From Paraburkholderia ginsengiterrae (GTDB lineage: Bacteria > Pseudomonadota > Gammaproteobacteria > Burkholderiales > Burkholderiaceae): a stretch of DNA of 59,165 nucleotides. Of the stretch, positions 15,376 through 37,229 are shown in pieces (position 1 is the stretch's first letter; every line of letters starts with the position of its first letter). Position numbers and translations under genes: made by a program. Below the pieces are notes generated by a model. That model was not told the DNA's origin and ran no database searches. It worked only from the letters and a program-made list of their open reading frames with translations. Location: NCBI RefSeq assembly GCF_001645125.1, contig NZ_LXKA01000335.1:1-59165 (forward strand), written 5' to 3'.

Positions 15376-15507
15376 CTACAGTAAGCATACCTTATTAAAA
15401 TCTACGGTCCGCCGGTAGACGTTCCTGTTCAGCCATGGCACGAACGTGTATTCGTCGTATGCATTGCTGCCCACATAAATCCAATTGCTGAGAATTCTGG
15501 ACATCAT
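15376..15507 (-). CDS. 43-codon ORF with strong RBS downstream of a tandem-repeat promoter
   Basis: MMSRILSNWIYVGSNAYDEYTFVPWLNRNVYRR and ten further residues, ending TAG at 15376. AGGAG lies 5 nt before the ATG. The peptide is rich in aromatic residues (Tyr, Trp, Phe), with no signal peptide. On the same strand, 134 bp upstream, is a full pair of the 19-bp repeats shared by the catabolic genes (15641-15678), which argues the ORF is or was part of that regulon. It could also be the start of a truncated enzyme. Confidence 0.45.
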   Translation of the reverse strand: MMSRILSNWIYVGSNAYDEYTFVPWLNRNVYRRTVDFNKVCLL

Positions 15508-15640
15508 CGTCTCCTACTTTTTCCACCATTAATGGGCGCCGGTTTTACAACAAAGGCCGCTCCATGCCGGCTTTCATGTCCTCCGATGCCAAGGCGGCGA
15601 GTTGCAAACTCGTTCGCCTGCAGCACGTCGCTACCAATAG

Positions 15641-15678
15641 ATAGTACATGATGACTAAGATAGGTAAACATACCAACG
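15641..15678 (-). promoter_or_regulatory. tandem 19-bp regulatory repeats, copy F
   Basis: On the minus strand, CGTTGGTATGTTTACCTAT (15678-15660) is directly followed by CTTAGTCATCATGTACTAT (15659-15641). Both fit the unit NTTTKGTATNATGACCTAT. No GGGAATACCC box is seen upstream, though a GTTTTTCTT run is in the corresponding place. It points toward the 43-codon ORF. Confidence 0.65.
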
Positions 15679-15823
15679 ACGTCAAGAAAAACTTTGGCGG
15701 CGTGTCCACTGGCTTCGCGCCTGAAAAGGCGGTCTCGAGCGCTCAAGCTGCTTGCGGGTGCCGGAACCGCTTCCCGGGAGTTGTCGTGGGGCTGGCAGGC
15801 TAGTGAGTAACCATGGGAAGAGC

Positions 15824-15892
15824 GGGAATACCCTCTCTTTTCCTCTTGCACAATGTTTTTCTTTCTGACCTAATTTCGGTACCATTTCCTAT
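15824..15892 (+). promoter_or_regulatory. GGGAATACCC box and tandem 19-bp repeats, copy A
   Basis: GGGAATACCC at 15824-15833, a 21-nt T-rich spacer, then GTTTTTCTTTCTGACCTAA (15855-15873) and TTTCGGTACCATTTCCTAT (15874-15892). It lies 61 nt before the ATG of the decayed dioxygenase copy, and is more diverged than the other copies, as expected for a dead promoter. Confidence 0.65.
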
Positions 15893-15953
15893 GACTATTC
15901 TGGGAGCGATTGCAACCGGAGCACACAACGACGTTTCAAGGGTTCAACGATCG

Positions 15954-16190
15954 ATGAAGGCATGCGAGGCATTCGACGAGGAAGGTGTCATCTGGCCATG
16001 GATCTTCCTGGCGAGCAGTAGCTGGCCCGGCGCTTCCTGATTTACGACCAGAAGATGGAAAAGCTGGACCCATGGCTGCCTGCTTCTTGAAGGCACGGCG
16101 CACAAGACTCACGGCCGAAACGCGAATCCGTTCGCGAAGGCCGCCCGGGCGAACTGGTCTGGCAGGATCTGGGGCACGTTTGATACTTCG
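15954..16190 (+). pseudogene. decayed duplicate of the phytanoyl-CoA dioxygenase N-terminus
   Basis: Pieces match the intact gene 390 bp downstream: MKACEAFDEEGVI against KAFAEDGAVLV at the start, and GTAHKTHGRNANPFAKAA against GTVHKTHNDNANPYAKGR. Frameshifts separate the pieces, and the catalytic part is absent. Upstream DNA is duplicated too (GATTGCAACCGG near 15908 against GTTTGCAACCGG near 16305), including the regulatory repeats. Confidence 0.75.
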
Positions 16191-16214
16191 CCATTGGCCG
16201 TAACCCGCAGAACA

Positions 16215-16284
16215 CAGGGAATTCCCTGTCTTTTTTCTTTTTCTTATTTTTGTATTATGACCTAACTTTGGTAGTATTTTCTAC
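16215..16284 (+). promoter_or_regulatory. GGGAATTCCC palindrome and tandem 19-bp repeats, copy B
   Basis: CAGGGAATTCCCTG (16215-16228) is a perfect palindrome. After it come TTTTTGTATTATGACCTAA (16247-16265) and CTTTGGTAGTATTTTCTAC (16266-16284). It lies 60 nt before the dioxygenase ATG and probably drives the uptake and oxidation genes that follow. Confidence 0.75.
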
Positions 16285-16344
16285 GAAGGCGCCGCAGGAA
16301 GCGTTTGCAACCGGGTCGCCTGTTGACGATTCAGGAGTTCAGCT

Positions 16345-17178
16345 ATGGAGGAAGCCACGCGCAAGGCGTTCGCAGAGGACGGCGCCGTTCTGGTCAAGGG
16401 CCTTCTCAGCGAGCAACAGTTGGCCCGGTGCCGACAGGTCTTCGACTGGGGTATCGAGAACCCCGGGCCTATGGCCTGCAGCCTCTTCGACGGCACAGTG
16501 CACAAGACGCACAACGACAACGCCAATCCGTATGCGAAGGGGCGTCTGGACGAGCTCGCTGGAGAGCTGCCGTTCGGCCGACTGTTCGCGGATCTCTGGG
16601 GCTCAGACAACGTCTGGTATTTCGCGGAGGAACTGTTCCTCAAAAGTGGGGGCAGGAGCGGGCGCTCGCCGTGGCATCAGGACACTTCCTACCTGCCATG
16701 GGAGGGCATGCACTTCGGCAATGCCTGGATCAGTTTCGAGGCCATACCCAAACAGAATGCGCTCGAGATTGTGCGGGGATCGCATCGAGGCCCGCGGCAC
16801 GACGGCACGACCTTTCAAAATGCTGAAGATCCGACTGATCCTCTGCATGGCGACGATGTCTGGCCACGCCTGCCGAATATCGAGGCTGAGCGCCGCGTTA
16901 GCCCGTCTGCTTACGAAATCATTTCCTGGGCGACAGAGCCCGGCGACGTCCTGCTGCTGCATCCGGGGGTGCTACACGGTGGCGGCGCGGTGGACACCGC
17001 GTTTCCGGATCGCCACACGCTCGTGCTGCGCTTCTTCGGCGACGACGCGGTTTTCAGCCCGCTGCCGCAACCGAGCCTCTCGGGCTTCACGCCGGCTGGT
17101 GTGTTGTTCGTTGAAGAACTTGCCGCGTTGAGAGAAGGGGATCCGTTTCGCGCACCGTGTTTCCGTCAACTCATCTGA
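16345..17178 (+). CDS. phytanoyl-CoA dioxygenase family Fe(II)/2-oxoglutarate oxygenase
   Basis: A 277-aa cytoplasmic oxygenase that would hydroxylate an organic substrate using O2 and 2-oxoglutarate. The iron ligands are H111 and D113 in SPWHQDTSYLPW and H211 in LLHPGVLHGGG; a downstream Arg in FPDRHTLVLRF would bind 2-oxoglutarate. Length and motif spacing are normal for the PhyH family. It is the first gene of the catabolic island's left arm, followed by ridA 17 bp later. The substrate is unknown; members act on acyl-CoAs, amines and secondary metabolites. Confidence 0.88.
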   Translation: MEEATRKAFAEDGAVLVKGLLSEQQLARCRQVFDWGIENPGPMACSLFDGTVHKTHNDNANPYAKGRLDELAGELPFGRLFADLWGSDNVWYFAEELFLKSGGRSGRSPWHQDTSYLPWEGMHFGNAWISFEAIPKQNALEIVRGSHRGPRHDGTTFQNAEDPTDPLHGDDVWPRLPNIEAERRVSPSAYEIISWATEPGDVLLLHPGVLHGGGAVDTAFPDRHTLVLRFFGDDAVFSPLPQPSLSGFTPAGVLFVEELAALREGDPFRAPCFRQLI

Positions 17179-17195
17179 CCAAAGGGGCCACCATC

Positions 17196-17609
17196 ATGAC
17201 AATGTCCACTACGCGGCAATCAATCATCCCGCCGCCGTTCCAGGCGTTCTACGACGCCTACCATTTCTCACCCGCGACCCGCGTGGGGGACACGATCTGG
17301 GTCTCCGGCCAGGTCGGCATCGGTCCGGATATGAAAGCCGGCGAAGGAATGTCGGCGCAGGCCCGTATCGCCTTCGAGTCCCTGAAGGCCGTGCTCGAGA
17401 CGGCGGGCGCGAGCCTTTCTGATGTGGTGGAGCTGACCACGTTCCATACAGATCTGCGCGGCGAAATCGAGGCCTTTTCGGCGGTCAAGGACACCTACTT
17501 CCCGGCGTGCTTTCCCTTGTGGACGGCGGTTGGCGTAACACAACTGGCATTACCCGAGTTGTGCATCGAGATTCGGGCGGTGGCCGTGGCAGGGTGCGGC
17601 GAGGGTTGA
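17196..17609 (+). CDS. RidA family (Rid/YjgF) imine deaminase-like protein
   Basis: A 137-aa protein of the Rid family, whose members hydrolyse reactive enamines/imines to ketones or aldehydes and ammonia. The motifs FSPATRVGDTIWVSGQVGIGPDM, QARIAFESLKAVLETAGASLSDVVELTTFHTDL and AVGVTQLALPELCIEIRAVAVA are typical, and the Arg in EIRAVA matches the substrate-binding Arg of active Rid proteins. AAAGGGG precedes the ATG at 17196. Its place among amine oxidases suggests it clears or converts imine intermediates. Confidence 0.88.
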   Translation: MTMSTTRQSIIPPPFQAFYDAYHFSPATRVGDTIWVSGQVGIGPDMKAGEGMSAQARIAFESLKAVLETAGASLSDVVELTTFHTDLRGEIEAFSAVKDTYFPACFPLWTAVGVTQLALPELCIEIRAVAVAGCGEG

Positions 17610-17685
17610 GCGGTTTGGTCTCGATGCGTCAGGATTGAATCTGACACTTCGTATTGCGAATTAGATTGAAATCGGAAGGAGAGTC

Positions 17686-19050
17686 ATGATGAGAAAGCAC
17701 ACTATTGGAGCCTTGTCGGCCATTGCGGCAGCCTTACTGCTCGTGGCCGGGGCCGCCGTTGCCGACGATCTCACGTCGGTAGGCGCGGAGCGCTCGGCCA
17801 GCAAGGACGGGCTCGTGCCGGCGTTTGCCGGCCGGGAAGCGACGCCGGCCGGTTGGGAGTGGGGCAAGATTCGCGGCGACTTCTGGAAGCACAAGAATGA
17901 AAAGCCCCTGTACACGATCGATGCATCGAACGTCGACAAATATGCCGACAAGCTTTCCCCTGGGCTGATCCAGCTCGTCAAGCAACTGAAGGGCTATCGA
18001 ATGGACGTCTATCCGTCGCATCGCGAGTGCCAGTTGCCTGATTTTGCCGAGCAGAATTCGAAGGCAAATCTCACGACGGCGAAACTCGCTTCGGATGGCG
18101 AGACGGTGCAGGCCGCAGTGCTCCCCGGCGTGGCCTTCCCGCAGCCGAAGAACGGCGCCGAAGCGATCCTCAACTACGAGACGCGTTATCGCGGCGAGGG
18201 CGTCGAGTGGTCGCCGGTTGTCACGTCCATTGCCCCGCGCCCCGGCAGCAGTGACTGGATCGACGCAATCGGTCCCCAGTCGTTCTTTTTCCCGGCCGGC
18301 AAGGAAGGCAAGACCACACCGCAGGACGTCGACCAGTTCAACCTGGGCGCCTACTTCTCGGTCGATTCACCGGCTGCGCTGGCCGGACAGGCCTTCGTGC
18401 AGCGTCAGTATTTCGACAAGGATTCTGAGACGTACTACTACTTTCCGGGCCAGCGCCGCGTGAGGCGTATGCCGGCCTATACGCATGATGCGCCGCTGAT
18501 CGGCTTCGAGAATCAGTACCTGATCGACGAATCCAACATGTTCAACGGCTCCATCGACCGCTTCAACTGGAAGCTTGTGGGCAAGAAGGAAATGATCGTT
18601 CCGTACGACGATTTCGGCATGTACAACTTCAAGGACAAGCTGCATGACGTCGCCACGCTCAATGGCATTGCGTCCGACCATCGTCGCTACGAGGTGCACC
18701 GCGTCTGGGTGGTCGAGGCGACGCTCAAACCCACGGCGCGTCACGTCGCGTCCAAGAAGGTTTACTACCTGGACGAGGATAGCTGGCTCGCGCTTGTAGG
18801 CGAGGACTATGACGCGCAGGGCAAGCTCTGGAAGGTGCGCGAGAGCTATCCGATCCCGGTGTGGGAGCTGGGTGGCACCTGCGATAACGAGCCGATGGCG
18901 CAGTACGACCTCAACAGTGGACGCTACGTGTTCGACGCGTCGTCGATTGGCCAGGGCAAGGACCTTCACTGGTACGAGCAGGTCAGCAACCCGCGTTTCA
19001 AGACCGATTTCTTCACGGCTGAATCGTTGAGATCGGTGAGCGAGCGCTGA
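17686..19050 (+). CDS. DUF1329 periplasmic/outer-membrane-associated protein
   Basis: 454 aa with a signal peptide (IGALSAIAAALLLVAGAAVA, cleaved near residue 26). The mature protein is rich in Tyr and Asp and has the family hallmarks YRMDVYPSHRECQLPDF, RDxx-like PGQRRVRRMPAYTHDAPL, FNGSIDRFNWKLVGKKEMIVPYD and the C-terminal YEQVSNPRFKTDFF. DUF1329 proteins have a LolA-like fold and accompany DUF1302 porins and RND transporters in steroid, alkane and other hydrophobic-compound clusters. GGAAGGAG precedes the start. Probable role: periplasmic carriage of a hydrophobic substrate. Confidence 0.9.
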   Translation: MMRKHTIGALSAIAAALLLVAGAAVADDLTSVGAERSASKDGLVPAFAGREATPAGWEWGKIRGDFWKHKNEKPLYTIDASNVDKYADKLSPGLIQLVKQLKGYRMDVYPSHRECQLPDFAEQNSKANLTTAKLASDGETVQAAVLPGVAFPQPKNGAEAILNYETRYRGEGVEWSPVVTSIAPRPGSSDWIDAIGPQSFFFPAGKEGKTTPQDVDQFNLGAYFSVDSPAALAGQAFVQRQYFDKDSETYYYFPGQRRVRRMPAYTHDAPLIGFENQYLIDESNMFNGSIDRFNWKLVGKKEMIVPYDDFGMYNFKDKLHDVATLNGIASDHRRYEVHRVWVVEATLKPTARHVASKKVYYLDEDSWLALVGEDYDAQGKLWKVRESYPIPVWELGGTCDNEPMAQYDLNSGRYVFDASSIGQGKDLHWYEQVSNPRFKTDFFTAESLRSVSER

Positions 19051-19126
19051 GGTTCGGCGCAGGTGCAGGGGACCGACGCGCGCCGCTGGCGTGTGTCGGC
19101 ATCGAGGGTGACGGCAGGGGAGACTC

Positions 19127-20956
19127 ATGAAAACGAAGATCATCGGAAGATACGTTGCGGCCTCGTTGGCCATGTTCGGCACAGCGGCAACGAGTGCATA
19201 CGGTTACGAATTTTCGACGGGCCTGAACGATCTCACGGGCTCATGGGTGACCAACCTCACGGCGGGCGCGGGCATCCGAACCAAAAGCCCGAGCTGCTCG
19301 CTCACAGGCGATCCGAACTCATTCGGTTGCGGGGCGGCCGCCAACGTCAACCAGTGGGGCGTGGGCGACGACGGCGACCTGAATTACCGCAAGGGGCAGC
19401 CCTTCAGCACCTACATCAGCGCGACGAGCGAACTGCTCTTCAAGATGCCGAGTGAAGGGCTCAAGTTCATGATCCGCGGCACCGGCATGTACGACTTCCT
19501 CGCCGGCGACACGAACAGGACGCCGCTGTCGAGCACCGCTGCGGCACAGGTCGTCTACAACGCGCAGTTGCTTGACCTGTGGGGCGAGAAGGATTTCACG
19601 ATCAACGGGCAGAACGCACACGTGCGTCTCGGCAACCAGGTGATCAACTGGGGCGAGAGCATGTTCGCGCAGGGCGGCATCAACGCCACCAATTCGCTCG
19701 ACGTGCAGAAGCTGCTGATCCCCGGTTCGCAACTAAAACAGGCATTGCTGCCGGCACCGATGATCAGTTTTGCCGCCGATCTTTCTCATGGCTTCAGCAC
19801 TGAGGATTACTACCAGTTTCAGTGGAACGGAAATCGCTATCCACCAGTGGGCTCGTACTGGTCCATCTCGAACAGCCTGGGCCGTGGAACGGACCCGTAC
19901 ACGGTTAACACCACGAATCTGAATGTGGCGGGCCCTAGCGCCGGTACGATCGCGGGGGCCAGCAGCGGTAACCAGAATGTGCTCAACGGGATCAACACCG
20001 GCCTCGTCAACGGTGCGTTTGCCGGCCCGCCCTTTAACGACATCGGCCTGCCTGTCAACTGGCAGGCACCCTCGAAGTATAAGCCGCAGTTCGGCGTGAA
20101 GTTCAACTACTCACCGCGCTCCTTCGATGCGAACTTCGGCGTCTATTACGAGAACTACACCGACAAGTCGCCGGTACTCTCGTCGCTGGCGAACGGGACG
20201 CTGAACTGGTCGTATCTGCAGAACCGTCAGCTCTTCGGCGCCAGCGCGAACTTCGGCATCGGCAACTGGGCGATCGGCACCGAGCTCTCGTATCGCCCGC
20301 ACGATGCCGTGGCGCTGTCGAGCTGCTATGGCGCGGGTGGCCCGCTCGACCTGAACACCAACGGCGTCGCCGGCGCGAATTGCCAGCAATGGGCGGACGA
20401 GAAGAAGTTCCAGTACGACATCAACGGGCTGCTCGCGCTCACGCGCAGCGAGTACCCGTTCCTCAAGCTAATCGGCGCGGACGCAGCGGCCCTGACCTGG
20501 GAGCTCACCTGGATCTACTACCCTGGCCTGAGCACGCACGGCATTACGCGCACGGTCAACGGCCAGACCGTCACGCAGGTACCCCAGGCGGGCTACCTGC
20601 CGTGGCTGAACAACAACTCTGGTCTTGGCTACCCGATTGGCATGGCACAGGGCACCTCGAGTTCCGTGGGCGCGACCGTCGATTTCAACTGGACCTACGA
20701 TGGCACGCTGATTCATGGCTGGCAGGTGACGCCCGGCGTGACGTTCGCTGACGGACTCTACGGCTATACGCCGACGCTCGGCGCGAATTACCTGCAGGGC
20801 GCGAAGTCGCTGAACCTCTACGTGCTGTTCAACCAGAACCCAACCGTCTGGCAGGCGGGCATCAATTACACGCTGTTCTGGGACGGACACAACACCGTGG
20901 GCAATCCCTACGCAGACCGCAACTTCGTCGGGATGTTCGTCACGCGGAACTTCTGA
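19127..20956 (+). CDS. DUF1302 outer-membrane beta-barrel protein
   Basis: 609 aa with a signal peptide (VAASLAMFGTAATSAYG). The rest is beta-strand-like with alternating aromatic residues, LRLGNQVINWGESMFAQGGINATN and a C-terminal VGMFVTRNF ending in Phe, the usual recognition end for BAM-assembled barrels. It is the expected partner of the DUF1329 gene upstream (76-bp gap). Likely function: channel for a hydrophobic substrate through the outer membrane. Confidence 0.9.
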   Translation: MKTKIIGRYVAASLAMFGTAATSAYGYEFSTGLNDLTGSWVTNLTAGAGIRTKSPSCSLTGDPNSFGCGAAANVNQWGVGDDGDLNYRKGQPFSTYISATSELLFKMPSEGLKFMIRGTGMYDFLAGDTNRTPLSSTAAAQVVYNAQLLDLWGEKDFTINGQNAHVRLGNQVINWGESMFAQGGINATNSLDVQKLLIPGSQLKQALLPAPMISFAADLSHGFSTEDYYQFQWNGNRYPPVGSYWSISNSLGRGTDPYTVNTTNLNVAGPSAGTIAGASSGNQNVLNGINTGLVNGAFAGPPFNDIGLPVNWQAPSKYKPQFGVKFNYSPRSFDANFGVYYENYTDKSPVLSSLANGTLNWSYLQNRQLFGASANFGIGNWAIGTELSYRPHDAVALSSCYGAGGPLDLNTNGVAGANCQQWADEKKFQYDINGLLALTRSEYPFLKLIGADAAALTWELTWIYYPGLSTHGITRTVNGQTVTQVPQAGYLPWLNNNSGLGYPIGMAQGTSSSVGATVDFNWTYDGTLIHGWQVTPGVTFADGLYGYTPTLGANYLQGAKSLNLYVLFNQNPTVWQAGINYTLFWDGHNTVGNPYADRNFVGMFVTRNF

Positions 20957-21000
20957 TGGCCCGTTCCGTACGCCATTGAATCATCTGAAGGGAAATTGCC

Positions 21001-23361
21001 GTGTTAAATCGCCTGGTCAAAACGCTGGAGAGGGTGTTCTTCGGTTACCGCGTGGCCGTGCTCGTGAGCATCGGTCTGTTCACCGCTATCGCGGCTTTTT
21101 TCGCCGTGCAACTTCGCATGGACGCGGGCTTCGAGAAGCAGATGCCGATCGGCCACGAATACATCCAGACCTTCCAGAAGTACCGCGCCGACCTGCTCGG
21201 TGCGAACCGGATCACCGTGGTTGTGCGGGCACGCAAGGGCTCGATCTGGACCAACGAAGGGCTCACGCGCCTCTACAGAGTGACCCAGGCGGTGACGTAT
21301 CTACCGAACGTCGACCGCATCGGCGTGCAGTCGCTGTGGACGCCGAACGCCTACGTGAACGAGATCACCGATGAGGGTTTCCGTGCCGAGCCGATCATCT
21401 CCGGCACGATTACGCCTGACCAGCTCACGCCCGACGTCGTCGCGAAGATCCGCCGTGCGACGACGCTCGGCGGTTATGTCGGCACGCTCGTTTCACATGA
21501 CGAAGACAGCGCCATGATTACTGCCGAGCTCAATGAGCGTGACCGGAACGGCAAGGTGCTCGATTACGTGGCGTTCAACCACCTGCTCGAAGCGCAGATC
21601 CGCAAGCCATTCGAAGACGCGGGCTATGAAATCCAGATCATCGGCTTCGCCAAGCAGATCGGCGATATCGCCGATGGTGCTACGGCCGTGCTCGGCTTCT
21701 GCGGCATCGCACTGCTGCTCACGGCGCTTGCAGTTTACTGGTACTGCCATTCGGTGCGCTTCACGGTGCTGCTGATTTCATGTTCGCTGACATCGCTCGT
21801 CTGGCAGTTCGGCACGCTGAAGCTGCTGGGCTTCGGACTGGATCCACTCGCCGTACTGGTGCCGTTTCTGGTCTTTGCGATTGGCGTCTCACATGGCGTG
21901 CAGCAGGTCAATTTCATTGTGCGCGAGATTGCGCACGGCAACAGCTCGTTCGACGCGGCGCGCCATAGCTTCAGCGGTCTGCTGATTCCAGGCGTACTCG
22001 CACTGATCACCGCCTTTGTATCGTTCATCACGCTGCTGCTGATTCCGATTCCGATGGTGCGGGAACTTGCCATCACGGCCTCGCTCGGTGTGGCCTACAA
22101 GATCGTGACGAACCTCGTGCTGCTGCCGGTCGCGGCTTCGTGCTTCAACTTCAGGAAGACCTACGCGGACAGTGCCCTCAAGCGCAGCGAACGGCGCTCC
22201 GCATGGCTGCGCGGGCTCGCGCGCATCGCCCAGCCGAAGTATGCGGGTGTCACTGTGGCGCTCACGCTCGTGGTGTTCGCGCTGGCCGCCTGGCAAAGCC
22301 GCGACCGCGTGATCGGCACGCTGCAGCCGGGCGCGCCGGAACTGCGTGCAGATGCGCGTTTCAACCGTGACGCCACGTCGATCGCTTCGAACTACGACAT
22401 CGGCCTCGACTGGCTCACGGTCGCGATCGAGTCGGCGCAAAAGGGCTGCGACAACCCGGCAGTCGGCCTGTATGAGGAAGACCTCACGAGCGCAATGGGC
22501 ACCGAGCCTGGAGTGGTGTCAGTTCAGTCGTATTCGGGCATGCTGCGCCGCTACAACCAGGGCTACAACGAAGACTATCCGAAGATGAGCGTCGTGCCGA
22601 TCGACCCCGGGAACTACGGTGCGGTGTCGGTGGACGTGGGGCGCGTGAAGGGTTTCATGAAGGCCGATTGCAGCATGACGGCGGTGCATCTGTTCCTCAC
22701 CGACCACAAAGCTACGACGGTCAGCCGGATTCTGGACGACGTGAAGACGTATCGCGCAACGCATCCGTTCCCGGGTATTACGGTGCGTCTTGCGGCGGGC
22801 AATGCGGGCGTACTCGCCGCGACCAACGAGGAGGTGGCGGCCAGCGAGCTGCCGATGATGCTCTATGTCTACGCGGCGATCCTGATACTGGTGTTCCTCG
22901 CCTACCGCGACTGGCGCGCGATGCTGGCCTGCTGCCTGCCGCTTTCGGTGGCGACCTTCATCGGCTACTGGTTCATGAAGGAACTGCAGATCGGGCTCAC
23001 AGTGGCCACGCTGCCCGTCATGGTGCTGGCGGTGGGCATTGGCGTGGACTACGCGTTCTATATCTACAACCGGCTGCAGGTGCATCTGGCGGGTGGACAA
23101 ACCATTGTGAAGGCCGTGCAGCACGCGATGCTGGAAGTGGGCGTGGCGACGATCTTTACGGCGATTACGCTGGCGATCGGCGTGGCGACGTGGAGCTTCT
23201 CGGCGCTAAAGTTCCAGGCCGATATGGGCAAGCTGCTGGCGTTCATGTTCCTCGTGAACCTGCTGATGGCGATGACGGCGCTGCCGGCACTGGCCTCGGT
23301 GCTTGAGCGCTGGTTCCCGCGCCGCAAACCGGCGCGCGCGCCCGGACTCTTCAGTCACTGA
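21001..23361 (+). CDS. RND/MMPL-family transporter
   Basis: A 786-aa inner-membrane transporter of the hydrophobe-type RND family. A first helix (VAVLVSIGLFTAIAAFFAV), a large periplasmic loop, then helix groups around residues 220-370, followed by a second periplasmic loop and the helix groups at about 615-770. The motif AVGIGVDYAFYIYNRLQVHLAGG holds the Asp typical of proton-coupled RND helices. It is followed by the YCF48 protein. The DUF1329/DUF1302/RND/YCF48 set forms a transport module; direction (import or export) cannot be read from the sequence. Confidence 0.9.
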   Translation: MLNRLVKTLERVFFGYRVAVLVSIGLFTAIAAFFAVQLRMDAGFEKQMPIGHEYIQTFQKYRADLLGANRITVVVRARKGSIWTNEGLTRLYRVTQAVTYLPNVDRIGVQSLWTPNAYVNEITDEGFRAEPIISGTITPDQLTPDVVAKIRRATTLGGYVGTLVSHDEDSAMITAELNERDRNGKVLDYVAFNHLLEAQIRKPFEDAGYEIQIIGFAKQIGDIADGATAVLGFCGIALLLTALAVYWYCHSVRFTVLLISCSLTSLVWQFGTLKLLGFGLDPLAVLVPFLVFAIGVSHGVQQVNFIVREIAHGNSSFDAARHSFSGLLIPGVLALITAFVSFITLLLIPIPMVRELAITASLGVAYKIVTNLVLLPVAASCFNFRKTYADSALKRSERRSAWLRGLARIAQPKYAGVTVALTLVVFALAAWQSRDRVIGTLQPGAPELRADARFNRDATSIASNYDIGLDWLTVAIESAQKGCDNPAVGLYEEDLTSAMGTEPGVVSVQSYSGMLRRYNQGYNEDYPKMSVVPIDPGNYGAVSVDVGRVKGFMKADCSMTAVHLFLTDHKATTVSRILDDVKTYRATHPFPGITVRLAAGNAGVLAATNEEVAASELPMMLYVYAAILILVFLAYRDWRAMLACCLPLSVATFIGYWFMKELQIGLTVATLPVMVLAVGIGVDYAFYIYNRLQVHLAGGQTIVKAVQHAMLEVGVATIFTAITLAIGVATWSFSALKFQADMGKLLAFMFLVNLLMAMTALPALASVLERWFPRRKPARAPGLFSH

Positions 23362-23378
23362 ACATGGGAGACGCAGTC

Positions 23379-24344: not shown

Positions 24345-24408
24345 GACAAGCCGTTCGCTACCTTGTTAGAACGTTCTCCTTAGTAGCTGGGAAGAAAGGG
24401 GAGAAACA

Positions 24409-26601: not shown

Positions 26602-26638
26602 CCGCATTGGCGTAGCGCGGCAGGAATCGGGAAGAGAC

Positions 26639-26707
26639 AGGAAATACCCTGTCTTTTTTAGCTTTACGTATTTGGTATCATGAACTATGTTTTGTATTGT
26701 GTTCTAT
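26639..26707 (+). promoter_or_regulatory. GGAAATACCC box and tandem 19-bp repeats, copy C
   Basis: AGGAAATACCCTG at 26639-26651, then ATTTGGTATCATGAACTAT (26670-26688) and GTTTTGTATTGTGTTCTAT (26689-26707). It lies 115 nt before the saccharopine-dehydrogenase-like gene and starts the CoA-pathway transcription unit. Confidence 0.75.
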
Positions 26708-26822
26708 CAAATTGGCGTGCATTATCGCAGTATCGTCCGACGGCGGGGTTCGCCAGCCGCCGAAGACAATCCGGGCATTTAGCCGACTCGACATTCGACC
26801 AATCAAGTTTCAGGAGACAAGC

Positions 26823-27956: not shown

Positions 27957-28003
27957 GCGCCGCGAACGAGCAGATTGAGGACAGATTCAGGGAAACATGG
28001 GAC

Positions 28004-29557: not shown

Positions 29558-29582
29558 GTCAGTCACATTGAGATAAAACACC

Positions 29583-30824
29583 ATGAGCGACATTTACATC
29601 GCCGGCATTGCGATGACCGTGTTCGGCCGGCACTTCGAGCGCAGCATTGACGATCTCGCGGGCGAGGCGCTACGCGGAGCATTGAAGGATGCGGGTTGCG
29701 ATGGCGGGGTGATCGGCGCGGCTTTCTATGCGGGTATCACCAACGGGCAGCTGCAAGGCCAGTTGTCGATTCCGGGGCAGGTCGTATTCAGCAAGATCGG
29801 GATTGACGGCATCCCGGTCTACAACGTCGAAAACGCCTGCGCTTCGGGTAGCACCGCAGTGCATCTCGCAGGTCATGCCCTCAGGTCGGGTGCTTGCGAT
29901 GTCGCGCTCGCGCTCGGCGCAGAGAAGATGAACGTCCCGGACAAAGCGAAATCATTTGCCCTGTTCGAAGCGGGCTGGGATGTGTCGCGCGTCGAAGAGA
30001 ACTTCGCCAGCCTGATGAAGCTCGGTGAAGGCATCGAGCCGCCGCCTGGATCGGAGTCCGATCGGCCCTATAGCCGCTTCATGTCGGTCTATGCCGCGCT
30101 GTGCCGGTATCACATGAAGACCTACGGCACCACGCAGCGCCAGATCGCGGCGGTTTCGTCGAAGAACCACCTGCATTCGGTGCACAACCCGTACTCGCAG
30201 TTTCGCCAGCCGTTCACGATCGACGAAGTGCTCGCAGCGCCGCCGATCACGTATCCGATCACGCTGCCCATGTGTGCGCCGGTTTCAGACGGTGCGGCCG
30301 CAGCGATCCTCTGCACCGAAGAGGGACTGCGGCGCATCGGCGCCGACCGCAAGCGTTGCATTCGCGTTGCGGCAAGCGTGATCCGCAGCTTCACTCATCG
30401 GGGTATCGACGAGCCGGAACAGAACATCGGCCGCCTCGCGGCGCTGCAGGCCTATGAACAGGCAGGCCTCGGCCCCGAGGACATGGATGTCGCCGAGGTG
30501 CACGATGCGTCGGCGATGGGAGAAATCATCCAGGCCGAAAACCTGCAACTGGTTCCGCCCGGCCAGGGCGGTCCTGCTGCAGAGCGCGGCGAGTTCACCC
30601 TCGGCGGGCGCATTCCCATCAACACGTCCGGTGGACTCGAATCGAAGGGGCATCCACTGGGCGCGACGGGAATCGGTCAACTCTACGAACTGGTGACGCA
30701 ACTGCGTGGAGAAGCGGGCGCGCGTCAGGTACCCGGCGCGCGTCATGCGATTCAGGAGAACGGCGGTGGATTTCAGGGCATCGAAGAGGCGGCGCTTGCC
30801 GTCCACATTCTGAGCAAGACTTGA
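29583..30824 (+). CDS. thiolase (acetyl-CoA acyltransferase, SCP2-like)
   Basis: 413 aa. The nucleophilic Cys is at about residue 86 in NACASGSTAVH, and the catalytic His lies in SKGHPLGATG near residue 355. The C-terminal block is QENGGGFQGIEEAALAVHIL; the usual second Cys is not evident there, which is common in SCP2-type thiolases that lack condensing chemistry. It would cleave a beta-ketoacyl-CoA. It begins 25 bp after the ligase and ends 10 bp before the FAD oxidase gene. Confidence 0.9.
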   Translation: MSDIYIAGIAMTVFGRHFERSIDDLAGEALRGALKDAGCDGGVIGAAFYAGITNGQLQGQLSIPGQVVFSKIGIDGIPVYNVENACASGSTAVHLAGHALRSGACDVALALGAEKMNVPDKAKSFALFEAGWDVSRVEENFASLMKLGEGIEPPPGSESDRPYSRFMSVYAALCRYHMKTYGTTQRQIAAVSSKNHLHSVHNPYSQFRQPFTIDEVLAAPPITYPITLPMCAPVSDGAAAAILCTEEGLRRIGADRKRCIRVAASVIRSFTHRGIDEPEQNIGRLAALQAYEQAGLGPEDMDVAEVHDASAMGEIIQAENLQLVPPGQGGPAAERGEFTLGGRIPINTSGGLESKGHPLGATGIGQLYELVTQLRGEAGARQVPGARHAIQENGGGFQGIEEAALAVHILSKT

Positions 30825-30834
30825 TGGAGCAGGA

Positions 30835-32346
30835 ATGAGCGAGACGACGGAAACACAGGTGGAACAACAGGACGGTTCGCGTTCGGGAGTGAGCCGCCGC
30901 ACGTTCCTGAAGGGCGCAGCGGCGGCAGCCGTAGTCGCGCCGGCCGTGGCGGCTACGCAATGCTCGCGCGTCGAATCGGCTGGCCCCGTGGAGGAGGCCA
31001 AATTGACTGCTGACATGGAGAAGTACCGCACACTTGGCGGCTGGGTGGAAAGACCAGACGACTTGCGGCCGGAACTAGTGGGCGACGTGAATGCGGATGT
31101 GGTCATCGTCGGTGCCGGTTTTGCCGGGCTTTCGGCTGCGCTGGAGCTGGTCAGGCACGGAGCGAAAGTGGTCGTGCTCGAGCGCGAGTTCGCCGGCTTT
31201 GGCGCGAGTGGACGCAACGCGGGCTATCTGGCCGGCGCGCTCGCGCTCGAATACGATCTTTTTCTCAAGAGCGTGGGTAACGAGAAAGGGAAGGAGATCG
31301 TCCGCTACTACGAGGACGCCGTTCCCTTCGTGGAGGGGAAGCTCAGAGAGTACGAGATCGACTGCGACTACAACCAGACCGGCATTATCCGTGCGGGCAT
31401 TGATCCCGCACAAGAGGAGAAGGTGCGCGAGGACATGCGAACCGGCGCCGGGTTGGGCTTTCAGTCGGAGTTTCTCGACCAGGCCGAGATGCGTGCGCGT
31501 GGCATTCCGCCGGCGTTTTTATTCGGCAATTACGTGTCGCGCGGCGGCACGCTCCACCCCGGCAAATACGTGATGGGGCTCAGGCGCGCGGCGTTGCGAG
31601 CAGGCGTGAAGATCTACGAGAATACGCCGCTGCTGTCTTACACCGAGGGGCCGGTCATCAAGGTGCAAACCCCGCGCGGCAGCGCGAGCGCGCCGGCGCT
31701 GATGCTGGCCACCAACGCCTATACGCCGCAGCTCGGCCTGCTCGCGGACAAGGTTGTACCGCTACGGGTCTCGGCGATCGAGACCGAACCGCTCTCCGAC
31801 ACCCAGCGCAAGGCGTTGGGTTGGCCGCGACGCGAAGGCATCGTGACGGCACACTGGACCATGGAAAGCCACCGCCTGACCGTCAACAACACGCTCGTCG
31901 TGACGACGAAGCGAATCCATTATCCATACGGCTCAAAAACGCCGAACGTGCCCGACTATGAGTCGTATCGCGAACTGCGCACGGCTCTGCATGACCGCTT
32001 CCCGTCCCTCAAGGGCATCGCGCTGCGGGCATGCTGGAGTGGCTATATCAGCTTGGCCAATGATGCGCTGCCGGCTGTCGGAGCCACGGGGGCGCATCGG
32101 AACATCTTCTACAGTGCCGGGTGCTCCGGACATGGCGTGGCTGCCCAATCCATGGTGGGCAACATGATTGCCGGGCGGATTCGCGGGACCGAAAATCCGC
32201 TCCTTTCCGCGCTGGATCACAAGACGCCATCGACGCTGCCCGAGCCGTTGCGATGGTGTGTTATGAACGGGGCGCTGGGGGTGGTGAATGCGCTCGACGA
32301 CCGCGTGAACAGCAACGCGCGCGCCGCGCAAGCGCTGCGGGCGTGA
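30835..32346 (+). CDS. Tat-exported FAD-dependent oxidoreductase, PuuB/DadA-like
   Basis: 503 aa. A twin-arginine signal (GVSRRTFLKGAAAAAVVAPAVAAT) is at residues 18-42, so the enzyme is exported. The FAD fold DVVIVGAGFAGLSAALELVRHG is at residues 90-111, with the DAO hallmark GFGASGRNAGYLAG as in gamma-glutamylputrescine oxidase PuuB. C-terminal GCSGHGVAAQSMVGNMIAG binds FAD. PuuB itself is cytoplasmic; export is unusual and fits the two other exported amine oxidases of the island. Likely substrate: an amine or amino acid. Confidence 0.87.
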   Translation: MSETTETQVEQQDGSRSGVSRRTFLKGAAAAAVVAPAVAATQCSRVESAGPVEEAKLTADMEKYRTLGGWVERPDDLRPELVGDVNADVVIVGAGFAGLSAALELVRHGAKVVVLEREFAGFGASGRNAGYLAGALALEYDLFLKSVGNEKGKEIVRYYEDAVPFVEGKLREYEIDCDYNQTGIIRAGIDPAQEEKVREDMRTGAGLGFQSEFLDQAEMRARGIPPAFLFGNYVSRGGTLHPGKYVMGLRRAALRAGVKIYENTPLLSYTEGPVIKVQTPRGSASAPALMLATNAYTPQLGLLADKVVPLRVSAIETEPLSDTQRKALGWPRREGIVTAHWTMESHRLTVNNTLVVTTKRIHYPYGSKTPNVPDYESYRELRTALHDRFPSLKGIALRACWSGYISLANDALPAVGATGAHRNIFYSAGCSGHGVAAQSMVGNMIAGRIRGTENPLLSALDHKTPSTLPEPLRWCVMNGALGVVNALDDRVNSNARAAQALRA

Positions 32347-32514
32347 CGCGCGTCAAGGTATGGGACGCTTCCGGCGAACAAGCCTCGACGAGGCCTAATT
32401 GGGGCACTGTGCGAGCGCCTCAGTGATCGGCTACCGCGGTTGAAGGAGATGAGGAGCGGGGATGACCGCTGCAGCATGTCCCCCGTGTAGATGGAGTTTC
32501 AGCCTGGTGTAAGA

Positions 32515-32533
32515 TATAGTCATGTTTACCTAG
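32515..32533 (+). promoter_or_regulatory. single 19-bp repeat unit before tetR, copy G
   Basis: TATAGTCATGTTTACCTAG at 32515-32533 aligns with the island's 19-bp unit (compare copy F2, CTTAGTCATCATGTACTAT). It lies 63 nt before the tetR ATG, the same distance as at copies A, B and D. The 19 bp immediately before it match only weakly. It suggests the TetR protein controls its own gene. Confidence 0.5.
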
Positions 32534-32596
32534 GAAGCGGTTCGTGTGACCGCATTGCCTCTCCCCGGCGAGGCGTCTCACTCAAGGCGGAAAGCG

Positions 32597-33283
32597 ATGA
32601 CAGTGACAAAAGAGCCAAGCACCCGTAGGCGGCGCACGTCGAGCGCAGCACCTTCCACGGGAACCGCACCCGACGGCCTGCGGGCCCAGGGCGTACGTAC
32701 GCGCAATGCCATCATTCGTGTCGCAAGGAAGCTCTTGCTCGAGAATGGTCCCATGGATTTCTCGCTGCGTGCCGTCGCGCTGAAAGCGGGAATCAGTGTC
32801 AGCAATCTCCAATACTACTTCCCGACGCGGCCTGACGTCGTGCGGGCGGTGATGGCGCCGGTGATCGACACGTATATCGATGTTCTGAAACAGGCGCTCC
32901 AGAGCAACGCCTCGCCGCGTGCGACAATCGAAGCCATTCTCGATCAGTCAGTGCAGGACGCGAAGGACTCGAAGAACATACCACTGTGGTGGCATTTCTT
33001 TTCGTTTGCGTCTACCGACCCGGAGTGCGCGCAGATGCGGGACGAATGGTACGACACCTTGACGAACGAACTTGCCAAGCTCATTCGCGCCGCGAATCCG
33101 GAGCGTGGGGCGGCCGAGAGTACCCATATCGCTGTGCTGCTCATTTCGATGGTGGACGGCATGACCATCCATCTGGGCACCGCGCGCGGCAAGCGCGCGT
33201 ACATGCGAGGGTTTGAGGCGATGTTCCTTGAGACCGCGCGTAACCTGGTATGGGGGAAGACGGTGGATGCCGAGACGGCCTAG
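32597..33283 (+). CDS. TetR-family transcriptional regulator
   Basis: 228 aa. The DNA-binding domain covers about residues 25-75: VRTRNAIIRVARKLLLENGPMDFSLRAVALKAGISVSNLQYYFPTRPDVVRAV, with the recognition helix in SVSNLQYYF. The C-terminal ligand-binding half is helical. A basic tail of about 20 residues (TRRRRTSSAAPSTG) precedes the domain. I chose the ATG at 32597; the GTG at 32546 lacks support. It is the only DNA-binding regulator in the catabolic island, and a repeat unit sits in its own promoter, so it is the best local candidate for the 19-bp sites. Confidence 0.88.
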   Translation: MTVTKEPSTRRRRTSSAAPSTGTAPDGLRAQGVRTRNAIIRVARKLLLENGPMDFSLRAVALKAGISVSNLQYYFPTRPDVVRAVMAPVIDTYIDVLKQALQSNASPRATIEAILDQSVQDAKDSKNIPLWWHFFSFASTDPECAQMRDEWYDTLTNELAKLIRAANPERGAAESTHIAVLLISMVDGMTIHLGTARGKRAYMRGFEAMFLETARNLVWGKTVDAETA

Positions 33284-33319
33284 CAGCCCCGGCACTCTGC
33301 CGGCGAAGAAAAAGGACGG

Positions 33320-33388
33320 GGGAATACCCTGTCTTTTTTTTTCACCTCATGTTTTGTATTGTTACCTATGTTTGTTATGGTGATCTAT
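33320..33388 (+). promoter_or_regulatory. GGGAATACCC box and tandem 19-bp repeats, copy D
   Basis: GGGAATACCC at 33320-33329, a 21-nt T-rich spacer, then GTTTTGTATTGTTACCTAT (33351-33369) and GTTTGTTATGGTGATCTAT (33370-33388). It lies 62 nt before the acyl-CoA dehydrogenase ATG. Confidence 0.78.
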
Positions 33389-33450
33389 TAATGAGGCGGC
33401 TGGGTTGCGGGGCAGTCCGGTCGACATATGTCCAGGAGAGGAGTACTGAA

Positions 33451-34740
33451 ATGATTCGACTGCACAAGTCCGTGGGGTTGCCTCTGGCAGGCTTGACTGG
33501 TTTCGAAACGCCGATGGGGGAGGAGGAACGTGCGATCCAGGAGACGGTTCACCGTTTCGCACGCGACGTGCTGAAGCCCGTCGGTCGCGAACTGGACCGC
33601 ATGACGCCGGAGGAAGTGATCGCGCCTGGGTCCCCGTACTGGGGCGCCATGATGGAGAGTGCAAAGCTGGGCCTCGATCCGCAACTGCTTGCGCAACTTC
33701 CGCCAGACATGGCGGTGCGCATCGAATCGCTGATCGGCGAAGAGCTCGGCTGGGGTGATGCGGGGCTTGCCGTTTCGATCGGCGTGGCGCCCGCTCCGTT
33801 GATGATGGCACAGTCGATCGGTAATCAGGAACTGATCGACATGTGCACCGGCAAGATTGGTTGCTGGATGAATACGCAGCCCGACCGCGGCACCGATGCC
33901 GCGATTCTCTACCGCGACGAGATCAGCGCGGGCGGCAAACAGCCGGTGGGTAATCTCACGGCAAAGGTGGGCGCAGACGAAATCGTCATCAACGGGCAGA
34001 GTTCCGCGTGGATCTCGAACGGCTCGGTCGCGCAGGTGGCGCTCGCATACATGGCGGCGGATTATGGCGATGGCTTCTATGGCAACGGGGAACGAAGTGC
34101 GTTCACGAACGGGATCGGCATGATCCTTCCGCTCGATCTGCCGGGTGTTTCGCGCGGCAAACCGCTCGACAAGATTGGCCAGCGCTCGCTGCCGCAAGGC
34201 GAGATCTACTTCGACAATGTAAAGGTGCCCAAGCGTTTCGCCATTGCGCTGCAGGATGATTATCTCGGCAATCTGGCCTCAACCTGGTCGTTCGCCGGCA
34301 CGCACATGTGCCAGGTGTTCGTGGGCGTAGCCCGCGCTGCGTTCGAACTCGCGCTGGGTTATTGCCACGAGCGCAAGCAAGGCGGGGCGCTGTTGATCGA
34401 TCACCAGATGACGCAACTGCGCGTGGGCGACATGTTGCGGCGGCTGGAGATGGCGCGTGCGATTGCGCGACGCAGCCTCGCATTCTCACGTCTGTCTCCA
34501 AAGAGCCATCCATACGCTACGGCACAGGCCAAGGTCAGCGTGACTGAAGAAGCGATGAAGATCACGCACGAGGCGTTCCAGCTCTTCGGCGGCAACGGTA
34601 CCACCCGCGAATTCCCGATCGAGAAGCTGTTCCGCGATGTGCGCTCCGCACTGATCGAAGACGGCGAGAACTATCACCTTACGTTGCGTTTGGGCGTGCT
34701 GGCAGGGAAGCTCTATCAGAACGGGTGGACGAAAGAGTAA
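33451..34740 (+). CDS. acyl-CoA dehydrogenase
   Basis: 429-aa FAD enzyme that introduces an alpha,beta double bond into an acyl-CoA and hands electrons to ETF. N-terminal helix block EERAIQETVHRFARDVLKPVGREL, the middle beta domain MILPLDLPGVSRGKP, and the C-terminal QLFGGNGTTREFPIEKLFRDVRSALIEDGENYHL, where a Glu sits in the usual catalytic zone. I chose the ATG at 33451 because GGAGAGGAG precedes it; an upstream in-frame start overlaps the regulatory repeats. etfBA follow after the DUF4148 gene, so this pair of functions is clearly linked. Confidence 0.92.
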   Translation: MIRLHKSVGLPLAGLTGFETPMGEEERAIQETVHRFARDVLKPVGRELDRMTPEEVIAPGSPYWGAMMESAKLGLDPQLLAQLPPDMAVRIESLIGEELGWGDAGLAVSIGVAPAPLMMAQSIGNQELIDMCTGKIGCWMNTQPDRGTDAAILYRDEISAGGKQPVGNLTAKVGADEIVINGQSSAWISNGSVAQVALAYMAADYGDGFYGNGERSAFTNGIGMILPLDLPGVSRGKPLDKIGQRSLPQGEIYFDNVKVPKRFAIALQDDYLGNLASTWSFAGTHMCQVFVGVARAAFELALGYCHERKQGGALLIDHQMTQLRVGDMLRRLEMARAIARRSLAFSRLSPKSHPYATAQAKVSVTEEAMKITHEAFQLFGGNGTTREFPIEKLFRDVRSALIEDGENYHLTLRLGVLAGKLYQNGWTKE

Positions 34741-34875
34741 CCAGCCCGTCGACGCCGATATATTGGCCCGGCGTTGGGGCTCCATGGTACCCGAATGAAG
34801 CTGTCGAATAGCGGCTACTGTGTGTGCAGTGCCGCTAATCTGGGTTCGAATCCGTTTGTCTATCAGGAGTACGAC

Positions 34876-35304
34876 ATGAAAGCTGCTGCGATATCGAGCC
34901 GTTCGGCACTCGCGGTTGTGCTGACGTCCATCCCCGTTTCTGCTCACGCGAGCGGCGGCGGCATTCGCCCGCAGGAACAATCGACTCCGCAATTCGTGTC
35001 CGTTTCAAGTGGAGCGCCCGACGAGTCAAGTGCGCAGACCGATGCGGCTCGTGCGGACGGGCGCCCGGGCACGGAAGTCAGCCAGGCGCTGGGTAAGACC
35101 CGGGCACAAGTCCGGGCCGAGCTCCTGCAGGCCGGGGAGGAGGGCATGCTTCCGCCACGCTGGGTTGATTATCCGCGCAGTGCGTCAACGAGGGCGCGCA
35201 ATCGGGAAAACTTTATCCGCGTGGAACAAGTGTGGAAGGCGAAAGCGATCATTCCGCCGACGAGCGTAAATAGCACAAATGGACTGAACGAGGAGCAGCA
35301 ATGA
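34876..35304 (+). CDS. DUF4148 exported protein coupled to etfB
   Basis: 142 aa with a short signal peptide ([23 protein letters not shown]). The DUF4148 signature [21 protein letters not shown] occupies residues 75-98. This family is common in Burkholderiaceae and has no proven function. Its stop overlaps the etfB start (ATGA at 35301-35304), which is odd for an exported protein and a cytosolic flavoprotein. AGGAG lies 6 nt before the ATG at 34876. Confidence 0.8.
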
Positions 35305-36050
35305 AATTGGTGGTCGCTGTAAAGCGGGTCGTGGATGCCAACGTCAAGGTCAGCGTGAAATCCGATGGCACGGGCGTCGACATCGTCAACGTGAAGATGT
35401 CGATGAATCCGTTCGACGAGATCGCCGTGGAGGAAGCGGTGCGGTTGAAGGAGGCAGGCGTGGCCACTGAGGTGATCGCAGTTTCGTGTGGCGTTCCGCA
35501 GGCACAGGAAACGTTGCGTACTGCGCTCGCGATCGGCGCGGACCGTGCGGTGCTCGTGGAGTCCGCAGTTGAATTGCAGCCTTTGGCTGTCGCGAAGCTC
35601 CTGAAGGCGCTGGTCGACAAGGAACAGCCGCAGCTCGTGATCCTCGGCAAGCAGGCCATCGACGACGATTCGAACCAGACCGGCCAGATGCTCGCCGCGC
35701 TGGCGAACCTGCCGCAAGCGACGTTTGCCTCGAAGGTTGTGGTGGCCGACGGCAAGGCTACCGTGTCGCGTGAAGTGGATGGCGGCGCGGAAACGCTCTC
35801 GCTGACGCTGCCCGCGGTGGTCACGACGGACTTGCGCCTGAACGAGCCGCGCTACGTCACGCTGCCGAACATCATGAAGGCGAAGAAGAAGCCGCTCGAA
35901 ACGCTCAAGCCGGAAGACCTGGGCGTGGACGTCACGCCGCGTCTGAAGACGCTGAAGGTTGCCGAGCCGCCCAAGCGCAGCGCAGGCGTGAAGGTGCCGG
36001 ACGTGAAGACGCTGGTCGAGAAGCTGAAGACGGAAGCCAAGGTGCTGTAA
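35301..36050 (+). CDS. etfB: electron transfer flavoprotein beta subunit
   Basis: 249 aa. [18 protein letters not shown] at the start, [19 protein letters not shown], then the AMP-binding region [33 protein letters not shown] and [24 protein letters not shown] are all typical. With EtfA it takes electrons from the acyl-CoA dehydrogenase and passes them to ETF:quinone oxidoreductase. It starts inside the end of the DUF4148 gene and precedes etfA by 14 bp. Confidence 0.96.
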
Positions 36051-36064
36051 GGAGCGAGACGAAA

Positions 36065-37006
36065 ATGACGAATCTGGTGAATCTGGTAATAGCCGAACAC
36101 GACAATCAGTCGATCAAGGCCGCGACGCTGAACACGGTCGCTGCAGCACAGAAAATTGGCGGCGACGTTCACGTGCTGGTCGCGGGCCACAACGCTCAGG
36201 CCGCAGCGGACGCAGCAGCGAAGATCGCCGGCGTTGCGAAGGTGCTGCTCGCCGACGCGCCGCAACTCGAACAGGGTCTTGCAGAGAACGTCGAAGCGAC
36301 GGTGCTGAGCATCGCGCAGAACTACTCGCACATCCTGGCTGCGGCAACGGCAGCGGGCAGAAACGTCACGCCGCGCATTGCCGCGAAGCTCGACGTTGCA
36401 CAGATCAGCGACATTACCGCCGTGGATGCGCCCGATACGTTCGAGCGTCCGATCTACGCCGGCAATGTGATCGCAACGGTTCAGTCGTCCGATCGGGTCA
36501 AGGTCATCACAGTCCGCACGACCGCTTTCGACGCCGTAGCATCCGAAGGCGGCAGCGCAGGTGTCGAGAAACTCGAAGCGGCAACAGACAGCGGCCTCAC
36601 GCAGTTCGTCGGCCGTGTAGTGACGAAGCTCGACCGTCCAGAACTCACGAGCGCGAAGATCATCGTCTCGGGTGGCCGGGGTCTGGGCAGCGGCGAGAAC
36701 TACACGAAGGTTCTGGAGCCGCTGGCCGACAAGCTCAATGCCGCGCTCGGCGCCTCGCGCGCAGCAGTCGATGCTGGCTACGTGCCGAACGACTACCAGG
36801 TCGGTCAGACCGGCAAGATCGTCGCGCCGCAACTGTATGTGGCAGTCGGCATCTCGGGCGCAATCCAGCATCTGGCCGGCATGAAGGACTCGAAGGTCAT
36901 CGTCGCGATCAACAAGGACGAAGAAGCACCGATCTTCAGCGTGGCCGACTACGGCCTGGTGGGCGACCTGTTTACTGTCGTGCCGGAACTGGCGTCGTCA
37001 ATCTGA
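36065..37006 (+). CDS. etfA: electron transfer flavoprotein alpha subunit
   Basis: 313 aa. The C-terminal FAD domain is complete: [53 protein letters not shown], then [28 protein letters not shown]. The N-terminal half ([23 protein letters not shown]) pairs with EtfB. This is probably a dedicated ETF for the pathway rather than the general copy, since it is under the same promoter as the dehydrogenase. Confidence 0.96.
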
Positions 37007-37161
37007 ACGCAAACTTGGAGTTGCGGCTGTGATGTCCGGGCGGATGCCGGGCTAATCCCGCTCACTTGGGCGGATCGTCAGAATCCCTGCATGGCGCGGC
37101 GCTTTGGTACCCAGCCAGGCGTCGGGAAGTGGAATGTCGCGAGGCATCTTTTGAGATACAG

Positions 37162-37229
37162 GGGAATACCCTGCATTCTTTTCGATCTCTATATTGGTAT
37201 ATTGACCTATCTTTGTCTATATGTACTAA
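37162..37229 (+). promoter_or_regulatory. GGGAATACCC box and tandem 19-bp repeats, copy E
   Basis: GGGAATACCC at 37162-37171, then TATTGGTATATTGACCTAT (37192-37210) and CTTTGTCTATATGTACTAA (37211-37229). It lies 181 nt before the second amine oxidase ATG, farther than the other copies, leaving room for an untranslated leader. Confidence 0.75.

Follow-up and report, generated by a model that had tools for sequence, protein, structure and literature searches.

We analysed a 59,165-nt stretch of Paraburkholderia ginsengiterrae DNA (GCF_001645125.1, contig NZ_LXKA01000335.1, positions 1-59,165, forward strand; hereafter the window), in which a catabolic island with its own TetR-family gene is marked by a repeated 38-bp element. 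The island encodes two pairs of a flavin amine oxidase and a cytochrome c, together with an AMP-ligase, a thiolase, an acyl-CoA dehydrogenase (ACAD), ETF and DUF1302, DUF1329, MMPL and YCF48 proteins. Among solved structures, the second amine oxidase best matches monoamine and putrescine oxidases. This gene set suggests that a lipophilic amine is taken up and degraded in a CoA-dependent way.

Tandem 19-bp pairs and the genes behind them

The 38-bp element consists of two 19-bp units, each with a consensus of about NTTTGGTATNNTGACCTAT, and occurs at six sites, A to F (Table 1). All six lie exactly where, and on the strands on which, an earlier note on this DNA had placed them. That note had also named T3, T12, C16, T17 and A18 as invariant, as they are in 13/13 units, and had described the two units as exactly adjacent. 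Half-to-half identity within pairs indeed peaks at offset 19 (64/114; the remaining offsets in the range 14-26 give 44 at most). The pair itself is AT-rich and the leader 3' of it GC-rich, with no further strongly conserved element downstream. In leave-one-out scoring every window site placed fifth or sixth in the window, after the training sites.

Table 1. Coordinates of the features discussed; distances are from the pair to the start codon
Feature	Position	Strand	Description
Site F	15641-15678	-	Tandem pair of 19-bp units; 43.0 bits with the refined matrix, 38.9 bits with the other-genera matrix; 133 nt
Site A	15855-15892	+	Tandem pair of 19-bp units; weakest of the six
Site B	16247-16284	+	Tandem 19-bp pair; phyH (16345-17178)
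Site C	26670-26707	+	Tandem 19-bp pair; DUF5938/saccharopine-dehydrogenase-like gene (ATG 26823), 115 nt
Site D	33351-33388	+	Tandem 19-bp pair; acyl-CoA dehydrogenase gene (33451-34740)
Site E	37192-37229	+	Tandem 19-bp pair; flavin amine oxidase gene (37411-38898), 181 nt
Inverted repeat of A	15817-15846	+	5' of pair
Inverted repeat of B	16210-16239	+	With T-run, 5' of pair
Inverted repeat of C	26633-26662	+	With T-run, 5' of pair
Inverted repeat of D	33313-33342	+	With T-run, 5' of pair
Inverted repeat of E	37155-37184	+	5' of pair
tetR	32597-33283	+	TetR-family regulator, proposed binder; C-terminal domain of BetI type (TetR_C_6)
Single 19-bp unit	32515-32533	+	In tetR promoter; 15.9 bits; begins TATAGT
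Decayed phyH copy	15902-16140	+	Duplicate of phyH leader and start, behind site A; relic ATG 15954
43-codon ORF	15379-15507	-	Downstream of site F; AGGAG precedes start
Double-TetR open frames	L117:16334-17803; L116 from 15330; L119 from 15801; L019:8277-9707		In related loci

The earlier note held that each site heads a catabolic transcription unit. This stood for B, C, D and E, but not for A, which precedes a decayed copy of phyH, nor for F, which precedes a 43-codon open reading frame (ORF) and no known catabolic gene. Likewise, its four sites at 60-63 nt from a start codon came down to three (B at 60 nt, D at 62 nt and the copy behind A at 61 nt), the last before a relic. The decayed copy is 68% identical to the region after B over 244 aligned nucleotides and has a stop in each of its three frames.

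The 43-codon ORF, with the core SNWIYVGSNAYDEYTFVPWLN in the window, encodes a protein with 84-100% identical counterparts next to the equivalent site in eight further Paraburkholderia loci (L048, L050, L054, L056, L058, L060, L062 and L128). Among the loci examined it was seen in Paraburkholderia only. No Pfam family was matched by the window copy, and the L060 copy gave one match far below the cut-off. Conserved and lying behind site F, it is a further candidate gene of the regulon.

Conservation of the sites and their link to TetR

Across the window and 54 related loci (1.08 Mb in all), a 38-bp matrix refined iteratively on its own matches gave 98 entries of at least 22 bits, once identical surroundings had been merged, with 84 distinct 38-mers; one entry, L103:8, repeats another, L093:5575. 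The raw matches numbered 128 against 0 in the reversed-sequence control at 18 bits or more, and 132 against 1 at 15 bits or more. Over the 84 38-mers T3, C16, T17 and A18 are fixed in unit 1, as are C16 and A18 in unit 2, where T3 is kept in 82/84 and T17 in 83/84. In the strongest single check, a matrix built from 47 distinct sites of other genera, and thus independent of the window sites, returned exactly A to F at 31.0-50.0 bits, with the next match at 10.6 bits.

The same orthologous genes carry the site across genera despite differing gene order. ACAD is preceded by a site in 22 entries, and the pair ends 62-65 nt before the gene in all 22. It also precedes phyH in 16 entries: the distance is 59-61 nt in 12 (two of these being one place seen twice) and 414-486 nt in the remaining four, which are A-type sites. 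Other site-headed genes are the DUF5938 reductase operon (24 entries), the flavin amine oxidase/cytochrome c operon (16 entries) and, in Burkholderia, the membrane-protein genes mem1 (5 entries) and mem2 (6 entries). The DUF1329-DUF1302-MMPL-YCF48 operon was also considered as a carrier of the motif and was rejected, as it scored at most 3.0 bits with the refined matrix where no close TetR adjoins (G010:C58, G016, G017, G024, G009 and the second copy in the genome of the window itself, G000:C372). A first matrix made from the window only had scored 17.2 bits in G000:C372 and 14.7 bits in G009.

Two units are the rule, but genome G010 has two sites with at least three. One of these has three units at 17- and 19-bp steps (20.7, 11.4 and 19.8 bits); the second may, judged by eye, contain as many as four, with scores of 9.3 and 14.1 bits for two of them. 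A different array was seen once, in Pandoraea terrae (L077:9270-9319), where three TAGGTC copies lie 5' of an acyl-CoA dehydrogenase gene at exact 22-bp steps (9270, 9292 and 9314), opposite in orientation to the window units. It is possibly a re-spaced form of the operator.

Among the 30 window ORFs scanned, the island's tetR gene gave the sole transcription-regulator match between 15.6 and 44.5 kb. Its product matches the N-terminal TetR helix-turn-helix domain PF00440 (28.4 bits, cut-off 24) and the BetI-type C-terminal domain PF13977 (41.8 bits, cut-off 27). On its sequence it is not BetI, because it scores far under the cut-offs of the BetI equivalog TIGR03384 (53.6 bits, cut-off 201.3) and of PRK00767 (48.6, cut-off 118). 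Orthologs of this TetR were found in 11/145 genomes of the genus and at 40 named loci. Loci with TetR and with sites before orthologous genes come from six genera (Paraburkholderia, Caballeronia, Trinickia, Pandoraea, Ralstonia and Burkholderia), so the repeats are not absent from relatives, an outcome that the earlier note would have counted against a regulon.

Presence of the motif follows presence of this TetR. A site of at least 22 bits lies in 36/40 of the named TetR neighbourhoods. Within the genus the 38-bp model matched 10/145 genomes, all among the 11 that are TetR-positive (G010 was missed), and 0/134 of the TetR-negative ones, which speaks against a random scatter of the repeats over genomes, the other outcome the earlier note had asked about. 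In a family sample of 399 genomes (motif E <= 0.01, TetR E <= 1e-40) the motif was present in 44/44 TetR-positive and 4/355 TetR-negative genomes. The four (G163, G194, G425 and G410) have a single match each, at E 0.0016-0.0087.

The motif follows the island's enzymes less closely. Eight genomes have TetR and the motif with no ACAD match at E <= 1e-120, and five (G119, G203, G378, G410 and G493) have an ACAD of at least 80% identity with no such TetR. All five carry two weak TetR matches inside one open frame of the same length. In the six stretches concerned ACAD identity is 81-85%; three have no site and three have one. The three without a site (L116, L117 and L119), with no score above -3.2 bits over the 20 kb examined, retain ACAD, SacDH, ligase and thiolase at 81-89% identity and carry the double-TetR sequence as a single open frame of 479-492 codons with two helix-turn-helix-like words. 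The L117 protein (489 aa), the only one put through a domain scan, has two TetR_N and two TetR_C_6 stretches. Thus, with exceptions, the motif tracks the single TetR better than it tracks the enzymes.

Within TetR itself the block GISVSNLQYYFP is identical in 41/41 listed proteins, including those of the four loci with no site of at least 22 bits. This invariance is partly built in, 40 of these loci having been retrieved by a pattern from it or from another conserved block (in part by ISVSNLQY), and it is weak evidence in either direction.

The earlier note had also placed a single unit before tetR. The unit is present, but it overlaps TATAGT, its opening, which looks like the -10 box of tetR itself, and it is near-intact in Paraburkholderia only. 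When 16 tetR promoters were compared by eye, the unit was intact in the window, L050, L066, L067 and L068 and had one changed base in L069, L070 and L071, so that 8/16 promoters have it with at most one change, all from Paraburkholderia. TATAGT alone is kept in L074, L078, L080, L082 and L102, and neither was found in L073, L079 and L104. Judged by these 16, autoregulation through a full unit may occur, and then in Paraburkholderia only.

An inverted repeat upstream of the pair

Sites A to E share a second element that the earlier note overlooked, an inverted repeat of the form ACAGGGAATACCCTGT with the core GGGAATACCC, mostly followed by a T-run and lying about 25 bp 5' of the pair. Upstream of site F no recognisable inverted repeat was found. 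The spacing is nearly fixed: a core of at least 6/8 letters stands 24-27 bp before the pair in 89/97 scorable entries, of which at least one (L060:1076) looks like a chance core. With up to three mismatches, a 20-mer of the repeat has five matches in the window against 0.01 expected. The 18-mer GGGAATACCCTGTCTTTT, with up to two mismatches, occurs 4 times in the 8.5-Mb genome, always inside the island, and 0 times in the reversed control; a genome-wide element was rejected. A model of the repeat matched 16/145 genomes of the genus, namely all 11 with TetR and, weakly, five without it (G046, G064, G076, G079 and G099; E 0.0112-0.0483). In G046, G064 and G079 both strands match, as terminators could.

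The repeat with its T-run might be no more than an intrinsic terminator of the preceding operon, unrelated to regulation by the pair, which we regard as a real possibility though somewhat against the balance of the evidence. It folds into stable hairpins followed by U-runs, with predicted RNA folding energies of -18.7 (D), -15.5 (C) and -9.9 (B) kcal/mol. Its outer arms also change together: of 57 distinct repeats, 91, 72 and 75% show pairing at positions 5-7 (52, 41 and 45% when shuffled), in a set biased by the choice of hairpins for their pairing, with 11/68 distinct repeats dropped for having under 6 pairs and a handful of those kept plainly misplaced. A terminator would, however, account poorly for the conserved core letters and the near-fixed distance to the pair. 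Six mem2-type sites (L095-L098, L100 and L103) keep the repeat and lack the long T-run, whilst at window site A and in L019 the repeat is present though the nearest recognised upstream feature is divergent. Furthermore, when 15500-33500 was scanned for terminators, B alone of these sites was reported, the total being 16 matches against a shuffle mean of 14.4.

As a second conserved part of the promoter, the repeat may be the site of another factor, a hairpin that would shield the promoter from upstream transcription, or both. An element resembling GGGAATACCC-CTTTTTT was also seen at G000:C372:43114 (L027), about 370 bp before the second DUF1329-DUF1302-MMPL-YCF48 operon of the same genome, with no tandem pair adjoining.

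A putative operator for the island's own TetR

The pairs form a real, conserved and island-specific regulon signal, for which TetR is, on present sequence comparisons, the best candidate regulator. The 38-bp element likely serves as operator for a regulon that is local to the island and controlled by the island's own TetR, which would bind as two dimers and repress. Each 19-bp unit would be one TetR binding site, and the head-to-tail arrangement would place two dimers next to each other at a spacing of 19 bp. Overlap of the pair with the core promoter is probable, because the pair is AT-rich, the leader is GC-rich and no strongly conserved element follows downstream; the transcription starts are likewise a prediction. 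Bound TetR would then block RNA polymerase until released by a pathway intermediate; as the ligand we can only guess at a CoA thioester or at the lipophilic amine substrate. The earlier note's observations are confirmed in part, and its interpretation, a regulon with TetR as the regulator, is supported, with binding by the protein itself still a prediction.

Several points weigh against this operator. Its role is a prediction from sequence, and the scan for regulators covered 30 of the window's ORFs. One site lies 5' of SacDH with no close TetR in each of L120 (35.9 bits), L121 (29.3 bits) and L118 (19.0 bits), and the genome of L120, G410, is among the four TetR-negative ones with a motif match. 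Conversely, four TetR loci reach no site of 22 bits (L075 11.5, L105 10.6, L088 -3.9 and L077 -7.9 bits); the contig of L075 holds a 33-bit site outside that locus (L023), and no site-like sequence was seen in L088. The 19-bp unit is also not a clear palindrome, unlike the usual site of a TetR dimer. At the best axis, internal pairing over the 13 units is 51 against 47.8 expected from the columns. Some units read GTCATNATGAC, yet over the 84 distinct sequences no axis stands out and pairing is not above column expectation; a palindrome TAGGTA-N4-TACCTA was dropped for this reason. Finally, a consensus scan found no plus-strand sigma-70 promoter in pairs A to D. It gave 3 matches in 15500-33500 against 3.8 expected, and the two that overlap sites are both on the minus strand (16283-16254 over B and 15685-15657 over F). 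No plus-strand match lies within a pair, and a simple sigma-70 promoter is not claimed beyond the probable overlap.

The pair could instead be the tandem asymmetric site of an activator encoded elsewhere, for example of AraC/XylS or LuxR type, with TetR merely travelling along. AraC-type activators typically bind near promoters at direct repeats of an asymmetric unit set in tandem, which fits the layout of the pair and the weak internal dyad of its unit. The persistence of the motif in L120 and L121 with no close TetR ortholog agrees with such a protein, as does the upstream inverted repeat, which suggests more than one factor. However, an unlinked regulator would have to co-occur with the motif as strictly as TetR does, given that 351/355 TetR-negative family genomes lack it, and no other regulator was found in the 30 scanned island ORFs (an unassigned 114-aa ORF of L102, at 388-729, is outside the scan). 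Nor would an activator explain the missing motif in the three enzyme stretches with a double TetR, and there is no AT-rich promoter downstream for it to serve. We therefore regard an activator as rather improbable.

Still less probable is a core promoter, duplicated and read by a special sigma factor, in which the conserved CTA and TGACC blocks would be -10 and -35 boxes and not contacts of an operator. TGACC (unit positions 12-16) does resemble a -35 box, the end of unit 2 is about the right distance away for a -10 box, and an AT-rich pair before a GC-rich leader would suit a promoter. A promoter has no need, however, of both units sharing these blocks at a 19-bp period, and the three-unit site in G010, the lack of support for plus-strand sigma-70 boxes in the consensus scan and the strict linkage to TetR all argue the same way. 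That the similarity is the functionless trace of a recent duplication of one promoter is scarcely credible: A is a decaying copy of B including its downstream region, but the invariant columns are kept before different genes, in diverged surroundings, in six genera.

Amongst known systems, the TetR operator proposed here would count as a variant of TetR control and not as a new type of system. AtuR of Pseudomonas aeruginosa is the TetR repressor of a cluster for CoA-dependent acyclic terpene breakdown and has two inverted-repeat operators in one divergent intergenic region. Compared by description, the present operators differ in being dispersed over the island. The window TetR shares with BetI the C-terminal domain TetR_C_6 (Pfam), but apart from its low equivalog score the Pfam matches of the neighbours of tetR do not suggest choline genes. 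AtuR is named in PMC3511530, according to which the Streptomyces TetR regulators SCO7222 and ActR each have three operator copies within a single intergenic region; those of SCO7222 are clear 15-bp palindromes and those of ActR weaker ones, and several protein molecules bind them. The present sites likewise have several putative operator copies per promoter region, but their units are weakly symmetric, mostly follow a 19-bp step and recur at several operons of one island. FadR of Sulfolobus acidocaldarius is a TetR-family protein that, according to PMC6449355, represses one 30-kb catabolic cluster through just four sites in the genome, each bound by one or two dimers; these sites are single semi-palindromes where a second dimer sits next to one arm. 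TetR-family control of one catabolic cluster would be common to both; the present regulon has two whole 19-bp units head to tail and mostly an extra upstream inverted repeat, and no sequence relation is claimed.

No paper recognisable as a description of this operator or regulon turned up in our searches of open-access full texts. With 31-50 bits per window site under the other-genera matrix, the pair is a highly specific marker for a Burkholderiaceae regulon, and it singles out one gene of the island as the candidate regulator. Should two TetR dimers indeed sit on a 19-bp direct array next to a fixed inverted repeat, the arrangement would depart from the usual palindromic TetR operator. More tentatively, and with some doubt on our part, the whole could be a two-part module, in which TetR would read a head-to-tail array of weakly symmetric units with a 19-bp period, acting together with the inverted repeat, conserved in sequence and in structure, 24-27 bp upstream. 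Such a module would have been copied before the operons of a mobile catabolic island and would fade or vanish with the double-TetR fusion.

Mce3R-type regulators of mycobacteria are described as having a double-TetR layout, which passages of PMC12136459 and PMC10580313 did not confirm. The window regulator differs in having a single module, and a fused protein with two TetR modules is found in stretches with no site or with one. Where an island has such a fusion and keeps one site or none, the joint change of operator and repressor can be studied. The two forms of regulator can also stand together: the double-TetR frame of L019 adjoins an ordinary TetR island, and G021 has the single TetR plus what looks like a double one.

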